DNA of 44,590 nucleotides. Origin: a virus. The stretch lies in IMG/VR virus record IMGVR_UViG_3300037882_000580, positions 1-44,590 of that record; one strand, given 5' to 3'. Positions 3,567 to 25,629 of the stretch are shown piece by piece. Position 1 is the first letter of the stretch, and each line of letters begins with the position of its first letter. The notes beneath the pieces were generated by a model, which did not search any database, was not told where the DNA came from, and saw nothing but the letters and a program-made list of their open reading frames with translations. Made by a program: the position numbers and the translations under genes.

Positions 3567-4367
3567 TTATACGTCTAAGTAACTCGCAAGGAATCCGCCA
3601 ACAGAAGTATCACTCCCTGCATCCCCACTGTAATTAATATCCCAATCCTCACCCCACCCAGACGCAGCATTGGCATCCTTAAACCCCTTTGCATTAGGCA
3701 CTCCCTTAAAAGCGAAGAACTTAGGGGCCTTGAAGTAAGCATACTCTACTCCAACCCCAACAGGCTTTGGGATAAGTCGTGATGGATAACCTAACTCGTA
3801 ATTGATATTATTTAGTAAGTTAATTTCTAAACTGCTGAGGGGCCTACCAAAAAAAATAACTATAGAGGCAACCCCTTCCTTCAAGTAAATAACTATCTCT
3901 TCCCCGAACAAAAATTTTAGGAATGTAATCAACTCCTCTGGGGTTACTGCTGTTTGGTTTTTAAGTATTTTGGATTTGATGAAGATTCTATATACATTGT
4001 CCTCTAATGTGTAATTTCCACCAACGGGAGCACCCGCTGTGTAGAACGTACCACCTACAGAGGGGTCATATGCATCTCCATAGGTCTCTCCATTTGGGTA
4101 TCCAATAAAAGCAAAGAACTTGTAAACATCTAGGTTGATAAGGGTGCGCGGCTGTCCAACAATTCTACCAATTACATCCAATTGCCACCCTGACGCCTCA
4201 TCAATGCTTCTTTTCTGCAATAAATCTTTTATTACTCCCTGAGCATTAGACAACTCTTGCAACATAAGCCTCAAGTACCTGTCAATTACTTCCTTATTTA
4301 CAAATTGCTCTGTTACCTTCCCTCTAGCATCTTCTAAAAAATTCTGTTCATTGAAAGGAACTAGCAT
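3567..4367 (-). CDS. DUF2612-family baseplate protein (P2 gpI-like)
   Basis: 266 residues, with the DUF2612 pattern: an N-terminal helix with QFVNKEVIDRYLRLMLQEL, then SGWQLDVIGRIVGQPR, a Gly/Tyr-rich loop, and DNVYRIFIKSKILKN followed by an FLKFLFGEEI block. In P2- and Mu-like phages this family lies between the J-like baseplate protein and the fibres and helps connect fibres to the wedge. The same order holds here. Its stop lies next to the start of the fibre gene, so one transcript is likely. Confidence 0.83.
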   Translation of the reverse strand: MLVPFNEQNFLEDARGKVTEQFVNKEVIDRYLRLMLQELSNAQGVIKDLLQKRSIDEASGWQLDVIGRIVGQPRTLINLDVYKFFAFIGYPNGETYGDAYDPSVGGTFYTAGAPVGGNYTLEDNVYRIFIKSKILKNQTAVTPEELITFLKFLFGEEIVIYLKEGVASIVIFFGRPLSSLEINLLNNINYELGYPSRLIPKPVGVGVEYAYFKAPKFFAFKGVPNAKGFKDANAASGWGEDWDINYSGDAGSDTSVGGFLASYLDV

Positions 4368-4368
4368 A

Positions 4369-5817
4369 TTAACTTACCGTAATTAAGATGTTTGCCGCTG
4401 TAAATTGACTTATGGCGTCGTAGGCTATCACTATGTTAGAAGTGCCTACAGGGGAAGGGGATAGCCCTATAGTTAGGGAGTTAATTTGATGCCCTTCAAC
4501 TACGTTTATAGGGGTGTATAACCTAGAGTAAACCACATCCTCACCTACCGTGAAGTTCTCCTTTGTGTACTCAATTATCTGTGCCTTTATTAAATCAATA
4601 CCATCTGCTGGAAAACTATCTTCTGTTGTGAGCGAGATAACAACATATACAAAAATTGGAGTGGGTCTTTTAAAGTTAATGGGTCTAGTAAAGCCTTGAG
4701 AGTCTACGATGTTTACTGTAGTATTCCCATAACTTTGTATACCGTATGGCTTATTATCCCATATTGTATTAGCAATCGTATCATCATCACCACCCAATAC
4801 AATAGGAGATACTGAGTGTGGGGGGAGTCCGTTAACGTCTGTTACGCTGGTATCATTTTCATAAACTGCGACGTTCTCAACACCCTCTATATTCTTTAGT
4901 GCTGAGTACAGAGCATCTAGGATATTAATACTTTTTTCAAATTTAGTATTATTGAATCTTATCCGTAGTTCTTCATCAGTCTCAGTAAGACTTCCCTCGG
5001 TGGCGGCTAGGATATTGGTGACGGTATCCCAACCAATTACAGGGGTTTTTATAACAGTAAGGGAATTAGCTGTGCTAGAAATCTTACCATCCTCTTTTGA
5101 GAAGAGGATACCCATTTTCTTCACCTTAGTTATCACAATATTTGAGGATGTTGAGAATGTAGAAGGTTGAAAATAGTTATCTTTAGTGATTACTAGCAGA
5201 CCGTTTTCTTCTGTTGCAATCAATGTGGGGTGTAATGTGTCGACATTTGAGATTAACCCAGAAATTATCTCTTCCTCTGTAGCAGATCCACTACTGGTGT
5301 AAGTTACTACGTTAGTAATGCCGAGATAATCTTCGTAAGTAACTGTATAAGTAGCACTGTTCTGTACTGTTATGGTGAGACCTACACCAACAGAAACTGA
5401 GGGGGTTAAGAGTACGGGGCTAGTAAGTTCAAATAAGTTTTTATGCTCCGTGGCGCCCACTGTATTACCCGCATCCAATATCGTACCATTAGTACCATAA
5501 AAAAGTGCTTGTACATTCGACTTGGAAGGTCTGCGTCTTACGATGCCCCCGTATTGAACTATGTTGTCTAGGGCAATACCTGTAGCGGTATTTGGATCTA
5601 ATGCACTATAAGCAAGTTGCATTTGTTCCCATATCACACTCTCAGGAAGTGAAAATAGATTGATTAGCCTACCTATAGTACTACTATCAGAAGTGTCTAC
5701 AATATCTTCTGGGCCTAACAAGTCTTGGAATATACTTACTGCATACTCCCTGTTGGATTTAAGTATATCCGGTAATCTTTTTAATTCAAAACCTGTATCA
5801 GAAAGACCAAAGGGCAT
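4369..5817 (-). CDS. Baseplate J-like wedge protein
   Basis: 482 residues. The start (GLSDTGFELKRLPDIL), the DSSTIGRLINLFSLPES segment, the middle ATEGSLTETDEELRIRF block and the VENVAVYENDT region with the following PHSVSPIVLGG are hallmarks of the baseplate J family (Mu gp47, P2 gpJ, T4 gp6-related). These proteins build the wedge ring around the hub and change shape on sheath contraction. Length and position, just after the gp25-like gene, fit the family. Confidence 0.92.
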   Translation of the reverse strand: MPFGLSDTGFELKRLPDILKSNREYAVSIFQDLLGPEDIVDTSDSSTIGRLINLFSLPESVIWEQMQLAYSALDPNTATGIALDNIVQYGGIVRRRPSKSNVQALFYGTNGTILDAGNTVGATEHKNLFELTSPVLLTPSVSVGVGLTITVQNSATYTVTYEDYLGITNVVTYTSSGSATEEEIISGLISNVDTLHPTLIATEENGLLVITKDNYFQPSTFSTSSNIVITKVKKMGILFSKEDGKISSTANSLTVIKTPVIGWDTVTNILAATEGSLTETDEELRIRFNNTKFEKSINILDALYSALKNIEGVENVAVYENDTSVTDVNGLPPHSVSPIVLGGDDDTIANTIWDNKPYGIQSYGNTTVNIVDSQGFTRPINFKRPTPIFVYVVISLTTEDSFPADGIDLIKAQIIEYTKENFTVGEDVVYSRLYTPINVVEGHQINSLTIGLSPSPVGTSNIVIAYDAISQFTAANILITVS

Positions 5818-5833
5818 TGTCTTCTCCGTTAAT

Positions 5834-6208
5834 TTATACTGTGAAGTTTAAAGCAATATTAGAAGATATTGCCCCTTTATCATCTCTAACACTAAAGTTG
5901 AGGTTATATGTCTTATTGATCAAGGTGGAGTTAAACTTTAAAATTTCCAGTACTCCAACTTCTTCTAGGATTATTTGCTGAAATATGTTATCGACGTCTT
6001 GTTTCCGTATCTTCTTACCTAGGATTCTCTGAAAATAAGGAACCCCGTACCCAGTATTAAAATCGTACTCTCCTTGGAAGGTCTGTAATCGAATTTTTAA
6101 CCTTTGTCCAACCACAGAAAAGTCTGTATTGGTGACAGGGCAGGCGCCGTTTGTGAAGACTAGATCATTAGTTTCACTATTAAGTAATAGGTCGATGATA
6201 CACCTCAA
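5834..6208 (-). CDS. gp25-like / Mu gp46-like baseplate wedge protein
   Basis: 124 residues, small like other gp25/GPW proteins. The diagnostic part is VGQRLKIRLQTFQGEYDFNTGYGVPY followed by a basic helix and a C-terminal beta strand pair. Such proteins join the inner wedge to the sheath and baseplate. It sits between the spike gene and the J-like gene, as in Mu and in minimal contractile phages, and overlaps neither. Confidence 0.85.
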   Translation of the reverse strand: MRCIIDLLLNSETNDLVFTNGACPVTNTDFSVVGQRLKIRLQTFQGEYDFNTGYGVPYFQRILGKKIRKQDVDNIFQQIILEEVGVLEILKFNSTLINKTYNLNFSVRDDKGAISSNIALNFTV

Positions 6209-22584: not shown

Positions 22585-23049
22585 TTATTCGTCTTCTAAC
22601 TCTTCATAGTCTTCATCTTCAATAACTTGCTTCATAGTTAAAGCAAGTCTAGGTCTGCCATTGTTCTCTTCGGCTTTCTTTTTCAAAGCTTCTGGGGCAC
22701 TCTCACCATATCCAGCAGTCTTAGCTTCATGTTCAGCCTTCTGTGCAGCTAACTTAGCTATCTTCAAGGCTACATCATGCTTATCATAATCACGCACAGC
22801 ATTAACAATCTTCCAAGCATTATCTAGCTCAGTTTTAGATGGATGCTTGTAACCCTCTGGCATTGGGTCTGGAATGCCTTTGTTAGTTTTGGAGATTATT
22901 TCCAAAGCTGCTTTCTGTTCACGCTTCAAGAAACCTTTAGCTGTAATCTGTTTACCAGCAGTTTGAGCTAACTTACGCTTCTCTAAGTCTGCTGCTAACC
23001 CAGCTAGTTGTTTTTCGTGCTGTTCTTTACTTAGCTTAGGTGATGGCAT
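22585..23049 (-). CDS. Terminase small subunit, putative
   Basis: 154 residues, highly charged and helical: KLSKEQHEKQLAGLAADLEKRKL at the start, a KTELDNAWKIVNAVRDYDKHDVALKIAKLAAQKAEHEAK helix region and an acidic end (EDEDYEELEDE). No clear helix-turn-helix is seen. Position immediately upstream of the large subunit is the main argument. A 21-codon relative of its N-terminus occurs 0.8 kb away at 23858-23923, on the other side of an HNH gene. Confidence 0.5.
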   Translation of the reverse strand: MPSPKLSKEQHEKQLAGLAADLEKRKLAQTAGKQITAKGFLKREQKAALEIISKTNKGIPDPMPEGYKHPSKTELDNAWKIVNAVRDYDKHDVALKIAKLAAQKAEHEAKTAGYGESAPEALKKKAEENNGRPRLALTMKQVIEDEDYEELEDE

Positions 23050-23051
23050 AT

Positions 23052-23633
23052 CTACTTAGTAACCTCATAATTGACAAGTGCAGTGTAAGCCCTGTCATCT
23101 AGGCGATCCTTGTACAGTTCGGCTAATGACTTAATTGCACCCTCTTTAAATTCTTTGTAAACCGAGAAGGCTTCCTCTGGTGTGAGGTAATCTCCTAGGT
23201 TTGTCTTCTCTTTGCTGGACTGACAGATAGCCCTGTATTTACCACTATCCTTTCTAAAGAAGACACCTTGTGGTGTGGCATTGATCTTTGGATAAGATTG
23301 TTTTACCAATAGCATATTTATATGGCTTGGAATGAATATGCAGGTATCCTCAGAGTAAAGCTTATTACCAGAAAATAATAGATCTTTATCTAACTGCCAG
23401 TCATCTAATCCAAAACCCACTTGATGATTACACCATCCAGCAAAATACTGAAAATTCCTGAAGTTGTCAGATGCGGTACAAGTCTCATACGTTGGCTTAA
23501 GCTGGTGATATTCCTTAGAGTAACATCTTTGCAATATACCAGCCCAAAGGTGCTTCTCTTTGGTGTGCCTACCATTTATGGAGCCTTTGTACTTGCCCTT
23601 TTCATAAACTCCACGACCAAAAACTAAATTCAT
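23052..23633 (-). CDS. HNH-like homing endonuclease (free-standing)
   Basis: 193 residues. It follows a pattern common in phage endonucleases: W-x-G-I-x-x-RCY at 30-38, a NFRNFQYFAGWCNHQVGFGLDDWQLDKDLL segment, GNKLYSEDTCIFIPSHIN, then an AP2-like DNA-binding end (GVFFRKDSGKYRA, then YLTPEEAFSVYKEFKEGAI). It ends in TAG three bases before the presumed small terminase start. The insertion between that gene and a remnant of its 5' end suggests a mobile gene that moved with its target. Confidence 0.75.
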   Translation of the reverse strand: MNLVFGRGVYEKGKYKGSINGRHTKEKHLWAGILQRCYSKEYHQLKPTYETCTASDNFRNFQYFAGWCNHQVGFGLDDWQLDKDLLFSGNKLYSEDTCIFIPSHINMLLVKQSYPKINATPQGVFFRKDSGKYRAICQSSKEKTNLGDYLTPEEAFSVYKEFKEGAIKSLAELYKDRLDDRAYTALVNYEVTK

Positions 23634-23857
23634 TTTTAACTGCTGACCTCTTTTATTTAAAGAGGCACCCAGCCTACATTGCCGCTTCGCAACAATTCCG
23701 TAGGACTTATGGTTTACCGAACGTGGTTATAAAGGCACTTACACTTACCTTTTATCTTGATAATGGATACTATAAGACCAATTGTTGGCTAAATACGGGG
23801 TTAATGGATACAATACTATCCATTACATATGCGTAAGGAACTACTCAGATTTAGTTA
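23634..23857 (-). other. Non-coding, hairpin-rich gap upstream of the HNH gene
   Basis: 224 bases with no open frame worth reporting. On the minus strand AATGGATA and TATCCATT form a tight stem (near 23802-23823), and CCTCTTT with AAAGAGG another close to the HNH start, which might influence its translation. No intron core was recognised. Confidence 0.5.
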
Positions 23858-23923
23858 TTATTGAGCATATAAAGCTTGCTTTTGCTTCTCGTGCTGTTCT
23901 GCTGTAATTAATTCAGATGGCAT
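23858..23923 (-). pseudogene. Remnant of the presumed small terminase 5' end
   Basis: 21 codons from ATG 23923 to TAA 23860-23858: MPSELITAEQHEKQKQALYAQ. It matches the start of the 22585-23049 product (MPSPKLSKEQHEKQLAGLAA), and the DNA shares ATGCCATC and GAACAGCACGA in register. The ATG overlaps the stop of the 64-residue gene upstream (TAATG), as an authentic gene start would. It looks like the original 5' end of the gene, cut off when the HNH region was inserted. Confidence 0.65.
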
Positions 23924-24117
23924 TAATTAGACTCCAGTATACTTATCAACTCTTTAACTCTGTTGTACTTATTATCCGACACCTCTATAATATCAACCAT
24001 ACCTGACACATACTCGTCTGATAGTCCCATCAATGAAGATAATTCAGCTAAATACTCAATATGAGTAAGGTATTCATCTATTAAACTAATAGGCATAGTA
24101 GGTAGTTTATTACACAT
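23923..24117 (-). CDS. Small acidic protein, unknown
   Basis: 64 residues, helical and acidic (SLIDEYLTHIEYLAELSSLMGL, then GMVDIIEVSDNKYNRVKELISILESN). Not recognised. It lies at the 3' end of the non-coding RNA region and its stop is coupled to the remnant start downstream. The sequence looks protein-like, but no Shine-Dalgarno stands out. Confidence 0.5.
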   Translation of the reverse strand: MCNKLPTMPISLIDEYLTHIEYLAELSSLMGLSDEYVSGMVDIIEVSDNKYNRVKELISILESN

Positions 24118-24439
24118 TATTGAGACTTATATAAGTTAGTGGGTAGATTAATATACATTAAGAAAGCCAACCATAACAATCAGCGTCTGTTCTGCTTTAA
24201 TGCGAGAGGGTAGGCTTTAGGGAAACTGTGGGAGACCATTTTAACGATAAGGTATCCACCAAATCGACATCATTCAAGATGTTTCATGTACCCGAAGGTA
24301 CTACCTTTACGCAGGTATTTGGAAGGTCGGAAGAATTATACACCTTATGGTGAACTTGCAACCTATCTTTCTTTGGTTTACATAATGACTTATATATGAT
24401 ACACAGTGTACCAATAAGTAGTTTATATGAACCATTGTT
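24118..24439 (-). other. Non-coding 3' part of the RNA region
   Basis: About 320 bases downstream of the tRNA-like gene without a convincing frame. It contains a textbook minus-strand hairpin GTACC-TTCG-GGTAC (24288-24301), and CCTCTCGCA near 24200, which repeats the 3' acceptor strand of the tRNA-like element. No T-run terminator is seen before the next gene. Confidence 0.5.
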
Positions 24440-24529
24440 TGGTGCGAGAGGGTGGACATTGCACCACCAAGGGTTTTCGACCATCTGATTTACAGTCAGA
24501 GCCGCTACTATTTACGGGGCTACTCTCGC
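24440..24529 (-). tRNA. tRNA-Tyr-like (GTA anticodon), atypical D and T loops
   Basis: 90 nt. Acceptor GCGAGAG/CTCTCGC with encoded ACCA; anticodon arm TCTGA-CTGTAAA-TCAGA with GTA at 24493-24491; a variable arm GGT-CGAAA-ACC, as class II tRNA-Tyr should have; T stem GGTGG/CCACC. The D loop lacks the GG pair and the T loop reads TGCAATGT (8 nt) in place of TTCRANN, so the standard elbow contacts are absent. It may be a decayed tRNA-Tyr, a real but odd tRNA, or a tRNA mimic belonging to the long RNA upstream. Confidence 0.72.
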
Positions 24530-25366
24530 TTAATTAGGTTGCTCCCTACAAAGAAAGGTCGCACTCTATGCCGATCGAGTTCAATGTAGGAAGGCTTTAA
24601 TAGGTCGTCACCTATCTTTATGACTTGTGTTGTTAGGTGGGTAACTTGCTGTATCGTTTCAACAGACTACGGTATATACGACCTTGCATCCACCAGTGGG
24701 GCAACACTTAAACCTCAGAAACTCATTACCTGCACTTGGGCTTTGACCTTGTTACGGGTTAGGACAACCGCACGTTACGTCTGAGTTGTTGTTTATAACA
24801 CGTAGGTGGGATAACTACTCCCACCGACCCACAGCAGCTAACTGTGTAAACGCAATCACCTTACGGCTACGTGTAAATTTACACCCGTTCCAGATCACCC
24901 TTACCGCCACTGGCTGACCCTTTCGGGTGGTGGGATGTCATGTTGTTACCAACAAGTCTGTCGCATCCAATTCTGTTCTGGGTATTTAACGTGAAGATTA
25001 CAGAAAACTTCCACATAAGACTATAGGAGACTTCATAAACCCCAATGGTTTGCCTATAGAATAAATACCTGTGCTGAATCCAGAGCTACATCCAGCTTGC
25101 CAACGAGTACACAATCAACCTTATTTCTAAGGACAGGTAAATTAGGCACACCTCGCTTTTCACTAACTACGGTAACCCCCATAATAAGCTACTTCACTCA
25201 GGAAGGTGATTTTACAGTCTGTACACAACTGCTCCCTTTCAAGCCCTATTACGGGAATTCTTTAAATTCGAGCACTGTTTCGACACCATCTACAGTGGGA
25301 GAATGAGGAGGGGCTATGAAACCCTGTGTCTTTAAATTAGGTTACAAAGTTACAATTGTATGTCAT
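24530..25366 (-). ncRNA. Candidate large structured non-coding RNA (GOLLD/ROOL-like class)
   Basis: Roughly 840 bases free of convincing genes. On the minus strand the hairpins have stable RNA loops: CCTTA-GAAA-TAAGG (25119-25132), TGTTG-GTAA-CAACA (24941-24954), ACCC-GAAA-GGGT (24917-24928), GCC-GTAA-GGT (24858-24867), a 7-bp GGTGGGA/TCCCACC stem (24805-24825), and nested CTATAGG/CCTATAG with AAACC/GGTTT (25021-25059). The other strand would give unfavourable loops, which fixes the direction. A promoter lies at its 5' end and a tRNA-like gene at its 3' end. GOLLD and ROOL are known large phage RNAs often next to tRNA genes; membership is a guess from size and context. Confidence 0.7.
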
Positions 25367-25380
25367 GTATGTATTGTAAC
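25349..25380. promoter_or_regulatory. Dyad over the ncRNA promoter, possible operator
   Basis: GTTACAAT (25349-25356) and ATTGTAAC (25373-25380) form a perfect 8-bp inverted repeat that covers the -10 element and start region of the ncRNA promoter. A further direct GTTACAA lies at 25341-25347. It could bind a regulator or form the first RNA hairpin. Confidence 0.5.
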
Positions 25381-25401
25381 ATTATTTCTGAATAATTGCA
25401 A
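25373..25401 (-). promoter_or_regulatory. Sigma70-type promoter for the ncRNA
   Basis: Minus strand: -35 TTGCAA (25401-25396), 17-base spacer, -10 TACAAT (25378-25373). Transcription should start near 25366, immediately after the small zinc-binding protein gene, giving the long RNA its own start. Confidence 0.65.
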
Positions 25402-25404
25402 GCA

Positions 25405-25629
25405 TTACTCGTTATAAGTGATTAATTCATTGCTAAAATACTCTGTTTCGTACTCAAAAGCATAGGAATGGGCATCCAATCTAGCTAATCCCCCACTTGA
25501 TGTGTACATACTCAGGCACGAGTTGCAAGTGGTATCAAGTATCTCTTTCTTTGTCCCATCCTCCAATTCAACTGTACGAAATAGTTCGTGTGGTTCTAAT
25601 AGGTTATTACAGCTAACACATCTGCACAT
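25405..25629 (-). CDS. Small zinc-ribbon-like protein
   Basis: 74 residues with two cysteine pairs, C4-x-x-C7 and C35-x-x-C38, about 27 residues apart, a zinc-ribbon-like arrangement; the rest is acidic and Tyr-rich. Comparable small proteins are common among accessory phage genes and may bind nucleic acid or protein; no function is assigned. It has its own promoter at 25705-25734 and lies just before the ncRNA promoter. Confidence 0.7.
   Translation of the reverse strand: MCRCVSCNNLLEPHELFRTVELEDGTKKEILDTTCNSCLSMYTSSGGLARLDAHSYAFEYETEYFSNELITYNE

Follow-up and report, generated by a model that had tools for sequence, protein, structure and literature searches.

A minus-strand RNA region in a tRNA slot of a tailed phage appears to be neither GOLLD nor ROOL and to centre on a module also found in T4

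GOLLD is a large, GNRA-rich phage RNA located near tRNA islands, with tRNAs sometimes inside it and a 3' region that is universally conserved, and ROOL is a large non-coding RNA of phages and prophages that likewise lies near tRNA islands (PMC12286853). The locus considered here belongs to a window of 44,590 nucleotides, the whole stretch of DNA analysed, which is a 44.6-kb IMG/VR fragment of a tailed phage. Like GOLLD, the RNA proposed for this window occurs in a phage setting near or around tRNAs (in the related locus L002, tRNA-Glu and tRNA-Met lie inside the region), and like ROOL it is large, phage-borne and close to tRNAs. It differs from both in matching no Rfam model of these RNAs; unlike in GOLLD, the core held in common is a three-way junction of ~60 nt, which is also found on its own, and unlike ROOL, this module shows no sign of prophage carriage, because it was not found in bacterial genomes. 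T4-type phages also carry recurrent intergenic elements, the mobile regulatory PeSL cassettes, which comprise a promoter plus a stem-loop. The module is equally recurrent and intergenic in T4-type phages, but its covarying three-way junction, its invariant loops and its occurrence in the long non-coding RNAs of other phages set it apart from the description of these cassettes, a comparison of descriptions rather than of sequences.

The minus strand of the window holds head and terminase genes, and the plus strand holds a divergent operon that includes an RNA ligase gene; Pseudomonas phage phiPMW, whose genome is 103 kb, has a terminase 54% identical to the one encoded here. Between a CXXC-motif ORF (25405-25629) and a 64-aa ORF (23923-24117) lies ~1.25 kb without a convincing gene. 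The first-pass annotation had reported such a gap over about 840 bases up to the tRNA-like gene and about 1.2 kb in all, and this holds: the longest open frames in 24530-25372 have 68 codons (minus strand) and 95 codons (plus strand), against a median of 176 in window slices of equal size. The conserved proteins, encoded by the 64-aa ORF and the CXXC (zinc-motif) ORF, begin only outside it. Homologues of the 64-aa ORF occur in L002, L003 and L005, the only loci recovered with the small flanking proteins as queries, and a DNA similarity search of the phage collection with the whole region gave no match except the tRNA. The features of the region are as follows.

25373-25401, minus strand: promoter-like TTGCAA-17-TACAAT with a TG before the -10 (9/12 match); the L002 counterpart is TTGACT-16-TATAAT
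24163-25372, minus strand: proposed non-coding RNA region, of inferred extent, as one RNA or several processed pieces; syntenic with L002 6270-7193 and L094 1527-2035
25282-25330, minus strand: 5' domain GACAC..CCUCCU..GGUGUCGAA, with the same layout in L002 6284-6349; not covarying
25119-25132, minus strand: hairpin CCUUA-GAAA-UAAGG, from the GNRA hairpin count
25021-25059, minus strand: stem CUAUAGG..CCUAUAG, from folding and sequence
24941-24954, minus strand: hairpin UGUUG-GUAA-CAACA, from the GNRA hairpin count
24881-24944, minus strand: module copy 1, a three-way junction with P2 ACCC-GAAA-GGGU (24917-24928); 31.1 bits, E 3.9e-7, outside the training set
24858-24870, minus strand: GNRA hairpin GUAGCCGUAAGG (GCC-GTAA-GGT at 24858-24867), common to L002
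24805-24825, minus strand: hairpin GGUGGGA..UCCCACC, from folding and sequence
24706-24775, minus strand: module copy 2, ACCCGUAACAAGGUC..GGUAA; 44.1 bits as a training sequence; exact-pattern match, with 0 expected in shuffles
24530-24545, minus strand: conserved block GGAGCAACCUAAUUAA just before the tRNA; GGAGCAACCCAAUUAA in L002 before tRNA-Met, GGAGCACCCUAUUAA in L094
24440-24529, minus strand: tRNA-Tyr-like gene; 34.1 bits with the Rfam tRNA model (gathering score 29)
24303-24316, minus strand: hairpin ACC-UGCGUAAA-GGU; CUUC-UGCGUUAGU-GAAG in L002 and L003, with paired changes on both sides in the alignment
24288-24301, minus strand: hairpin GUACC-UUCG-GGUAC, from the UUCG hairpin count
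24163-24218, minus strand: tail hairpin AAAGCC-UACCCUCUC..AUGGU-UGGCUUU, whose arms appear compensatory in L002 and L094

Every stem that the first-pass annotation had named is present on the minus strand. Hairpins closed by GNRA or C(UUCG)G loops number four on this strand in 24119-25372, against 0.3 in dinucleotide shuffles, and one on the plus strand. Because none of 500 shuffles reaches four on the minus strand whereas 122/500 reach one on the plus strand, which is the chance level, both the hairpin excess and the call of a minus-strand reading with poor plus-strand loops are real. The folding energy of the whole region is unexceptional (z = -1.2 for the minus strand and -0.3 for the plus strand), and its minimum-energy folding is uninformative. 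The proposed promoter fared less well: the motif and its TG are there, but such motifs are no commoner than chance, so the motif alone does not support the reality of the promoter, for which the sole support is the near-consensus sequence at the same place in L002.

The element that ties this region to other phages is the three-way-junction module. Used as a query, its core in L002 unexpectedly brought up an element that lies between genes in T4-like phages. Viral contigs were then scanned by pattern, which yielded a large set that was cleared of coding false positives; in each scan a sizeable share of the matches (about 17 in one and 13 in another) fell inside genes, and these were discarded after inspection by eye and for overlap with ORFs. 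The structure shared by 37 non-redundant sequences consists of a 5-bp P1 in which one nucleotide bulges out at a constant position, a P2 of the form ACC[YGURAHAA]GGU, a C, a variable P3 and GGUAA; judging by eye, we take the octaloop UGURAHAA to have the T-loop form. Gathering homologues and testing their stems, a check that the first-pass annotation had proposed, showed that the module pairs covary strongly over the 37 phages (0.44; shuffles gave 0.141±0.018, with 0/500 reaching that score, and slid controls no more than 0.10), with a value of 0.516 on model-fitted rows. Pair 16-51 is seen as AU, UA, CG, UG and GC, pairs 15-53 and 14-54 form in 37/37 and 36/37 sequences, and P1 uses nearly every standard pair type. 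Folding of single sequences did not recover the module structure.

A covariance model of the module (R1) finds 40 copies in 49 loci and two in the window. The copy at 24881-24944, scored without having been used in training, is the counterpart of the L002 module, with a GAAA tetraloop in place of the octaloop. No convincing third copy was found in the region with R1 run without filters, and weaker matches there (E 0.35 and above) were not counted as copies. The module is usually intergenic, typically within gene-free stretches of about 0.4-2 kb (often ~0.9 kb).

The tRNA-Tyr-like gene, also delimited as 24443-24529, has a GUA anticodon, a long variable arm and an encoded CCA. It scores above the Rfam gathering threshold, but ARAGORN missed it and its T loop is odd. 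It is 83% identical over 59 nt to Enterococcus phage sequences, one of them annotated as tRNA-Tyr. A tRNA occurs within 1 kb of the module in 13 of 28 listed loci, several of which are on short contigs, and in several loci the module directly follows a tRNA (by 29-159 nt). Close to the 3' part of the RNA region, a tRNA-Ser-like sequence (L003 141-230; UGA anticodon, long variable arm) was likewise missed by ARAGORN, and the tRNA content of phages is probably under-counted. Additionally, L088, a contig that carries the module and tRNAs, has an abiF RNA (RF03085, 45 bits) at 3624-3655.

The analysis covers three long homologues of the large RNA. In L002, whose terminase is 87-91% identical to that of the window, a 0.95-kb gene-free region occupies the same place, and in L094, whose terminase is much more distant from the window's, the surroundings are also syntenic: in the window, L002 and L094 a CXXC ORF is followed by RNA and tRNA, the small terminase gene and the large terminase gene, with four tRNAs preceding the RNA in L094. 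The L002 RNA shows extended similarity, outside the tRNAs, to L094 (E 6.7e-11) and L096 (E 1.6e-4). The window and L002 can be aligned in short blocks only, namely GACAC..GGUGUCGAA; GGUCAGC-hairpin-GCGGUAA; GGUGUAAA-n-GUAGCCGUAAGG; and GGAGCAACCYAAUUAA just before the tRNA, the UGCGUNA hairpin with its paired changes, and the tail hairpin around ACCCUCUC. The arms of the tail hairpin read AAAGCC/GGCUUU in the window, AAACCC/GGGUUU in L002 and AGCCCAAC/GUUGGGCU in L094, while ACCCUCUC or ACCUCUC is kept, a pattern that, read from the sequences, is compensatory. Since the module, the GGAGCA block and the tail hairpin keep their order at the same syntenic site in the window, L002 and L094, they may form a unit. 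The pattern GTGTAAA-n-GTAGCCGTAAGG was discarded, having yielded two coding false positives (L020 and L021).

The genes beside the region have features of their own. The start of a small-terminase-like gene (MPSELITAEQHEKQK..) occurs twice: a duplicate lies upstream of a free-standing HNH endonuclease gene, after which a full copy follows (23863-23923 and 22585-23633); L002 lacks the duplicated start, which looks like the scar of an HNH-gene insertion. Just upstream of the HNH gene, a block at 23655-23721 (GGUAAACC..AAUUGUUGCGAAGCGGCAAUGUAGGCWGGGUGCC) is ~90% identical in L002 between diverged flanks; its surroundings have an unusually strong fold (z about -3.3), and the block could be an RNA element connected with that gene. 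In L002, L003, L005, L006 and L008-L011, group I introns of ~220-270 nt, identified by Rfam matches, split the large terminase gene beyond about residue 29 and/or 116; that of the window is uninterrupted.

The first-pass annotation had left undecided whether this was GOLLD, ROOL or a new class and had named their covariance models as the means to tell. Rfam models run on the window, at the gathering score and then at E up to 10, matched no family except tRNA, and thus the region is not GOLLD or ROOL. The GOLLD (RF02032) and ROOL (RF03087) models had no match in the window or L002 (E up to 10) and none in nine further loci or in five T4/V5-type loci (E up to 1). Group I introns associated with HNH genes offer another likeness, as an HNH gene adjoins the region and introns sit in the terminase genes of close relatives; unlike such introns, the region has no match to the core model RF00028, and an intron there was rejected. 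The same model found 12 group I introns in the relatives, which shows that the Rfam search can detect large RNAs. L002 also carries, at 4575-5996, one small ORF upstream of the non-coding RNA, a gene for a DUF2828/DUF7788 protein that we assume to be Ro60/TROVE-like. Ro proteins bind tRNA-like Y RNAs. A Y-RNA link was nevertheless rejected because the window fragment does not encode this protein and the Y RNA models gave no match: the Y RNA-like YrlA model (RF02553) had no match in the window or L002, and in L029 gave a sub-threshold 25-bit match that overlaps tRNA genes.

Beyond these loci, a 36-nt core query matched 801 phage records (T4-like, V5-like, Vibrio and others), and a 116-nt T4-type query run with a loose cut-off matched 1,117, including T4 and T2, with 623 of these matches spanning 80% or more of the query. 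The module in these ~800 records is absent from the Rfam catalogue, and no description of the T4 element was found in the literature searched outside subscription journals. In V5-like phages the module lies upstream of a tRNA array and the terminase; in Vibrio phage 184E37.1 it lies in a gene-poor 1.2-2.2 kb beside a tRNA and, according to the twin record F97, an HNH gene; and in E. coli phage Ivi it follows the endolysin gene. Ivi and L068 carry compact stand-alone versions, each followed by a terminator-like stem-loop. The module core was not found in 5,426 E. coli genomes, and two genome-wide patterns in about 85,000 bacterial species/genomes gave nothing or 4 matches, all inside protein genes. 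Of 72,556 plasmid records a single one matches, and its length of 137.6 kb, that of a V5-like phage, makes a misfiled phage the probable explanation.

In T4 the module stands alone as an intergenic element of ~110-160 nt. Structured elements of this length in the T4-like L026-L028, L030 and L075 lie between the denV/ip genes and vs.8, directly upstream of vs.8/ip-type start codons, and L080, L049 and L028 have the T4-type element in two tandem copies. A second covarying hairpin domain with CCUCUC precedes the module in T4-like phages (0.124 versus 0.048, 13 sequences), and its apparent resemblance to the tail hairpin of the window is a lead.

Taken as a whole, it is almost certain that the gene-free stretch gives rise to a folded RNA whose core is formed by two copies of the module, which many lytic phages share, and several of its hairpins stay paired from one relative to another. 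The reading we prefer, with a probability of roughly one half, is that this is a minus-strand phage structural RNA in the tRNA-array slot upstream of the terminase genes, processed with the tRNA and acting as a stable folded scaffold in infection. The RNA and the phage tRNA would probably be transcribed and processed together, the processed RNA then persisting as the scaffold, and the octaloop, or the GNRA loop substituting for it, may be a docking element for RNA-RNA or RNA-protein contacts; from general knowledge, the replacement in copy 1 is compatible with such a role. The window RNA would be GOLLD/ROOL-like in kind, with a tRNA inside or beside it, and T4-like phages would use the same module alone as a short intergenic element. 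Covariation and homologues uphold the first-pass proposal of a structured minus-strand non-coding RNA beside a tRNA, now set apart from GOLLD and ROOL, but a mosaic in which RNA modules and tRNAs are separate would accord with the data as well.

Such a mosaic is the main rival: small RNA modules, independent of each other, would form an array with tRNAs, be mobile and shuffled among phages, and be made as one precursor that is cut into ~60-150-nt pieces, with each piece perhaps working by itself, for instance as a decoy or binding site. The tandem modules of L080, L099 and the window, the compact versions in L068 and Ivi and the short T4-type element all agree with it, and related blocks are ordered differently in L088/L100/L102, which argues against one rigid large RNA; the order kept by the module, GGAGCA block and tail hairpin in the window, L002 and L094 points instead to a unit, and we consider the array possible but somewhat doubtful. 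Improbable for the window is that the module is a cis-regulatory leader (riboswitch-like, a protein-binding or an RNase site) for the next gene, here the 64-aa ORF or the terminase operon. In T4-like phages such a role is plausible, and is suggested by the position of the module just before the start codons of internal-protein or vs-type genes, where it carries an AAGGA-containing hairpin, but in the window ~600 nt including the tRNA separate it from the next ORF, terminator-like stem-loops follow it in L068 and Ivi, and the downstream gene varies between loci.

The two remaining explanations have little left to them. Size, phage setting and tRNAs nearby or inside, as known for GOLLD (PMC12286853), would suit a diverged GOLLD or ROOL RNA missed by the Rfam models; the failure of those models in every locus searched makes this very unlikely, and the reading is largely refuted. 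It is also highly improbable that the stretch is what remains, free of constraint, of a tRNA array or intron that has decayed and in which the module survived by chance: the tRNA-array slot, the ordinary folding energy and the group I introns and HNH genes near relatives' loci speak for this, but the strong covariation of the module contradicts it, as do the apparent compensatory change in the tail hairpin and the blocks conserved across distant phages.

The structural RNA favoured here appears to belong to a new family centred on the module that T4 also carries. We hold about evenly balanced the broader idea of an uncatalogued family of phage structural RNAs built from the recurrent module, whose members, a short element in T4-like phages and large RNAs fused to tRNA arrays in other lytic phages, would share one role during infection. 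Ribosomes, tRNA-processing enzymes or a host defence factor might, for example, be what such an RNA scaffolds or decoys. Should this be so, catalogues have missed a conserved structured RNA module that some 800 phage records contain, T4 and T2 among them. Because the module occurs in tractable laboratory phages, simple deletions could then probe its function and perhaps also the long-open question of what large phage RNAs near tRNAs do. A short T4 element linked in this way to large tRNA-associated RNAs would, in addition, point to mobile modules as the building blocks of large phage RNAs.
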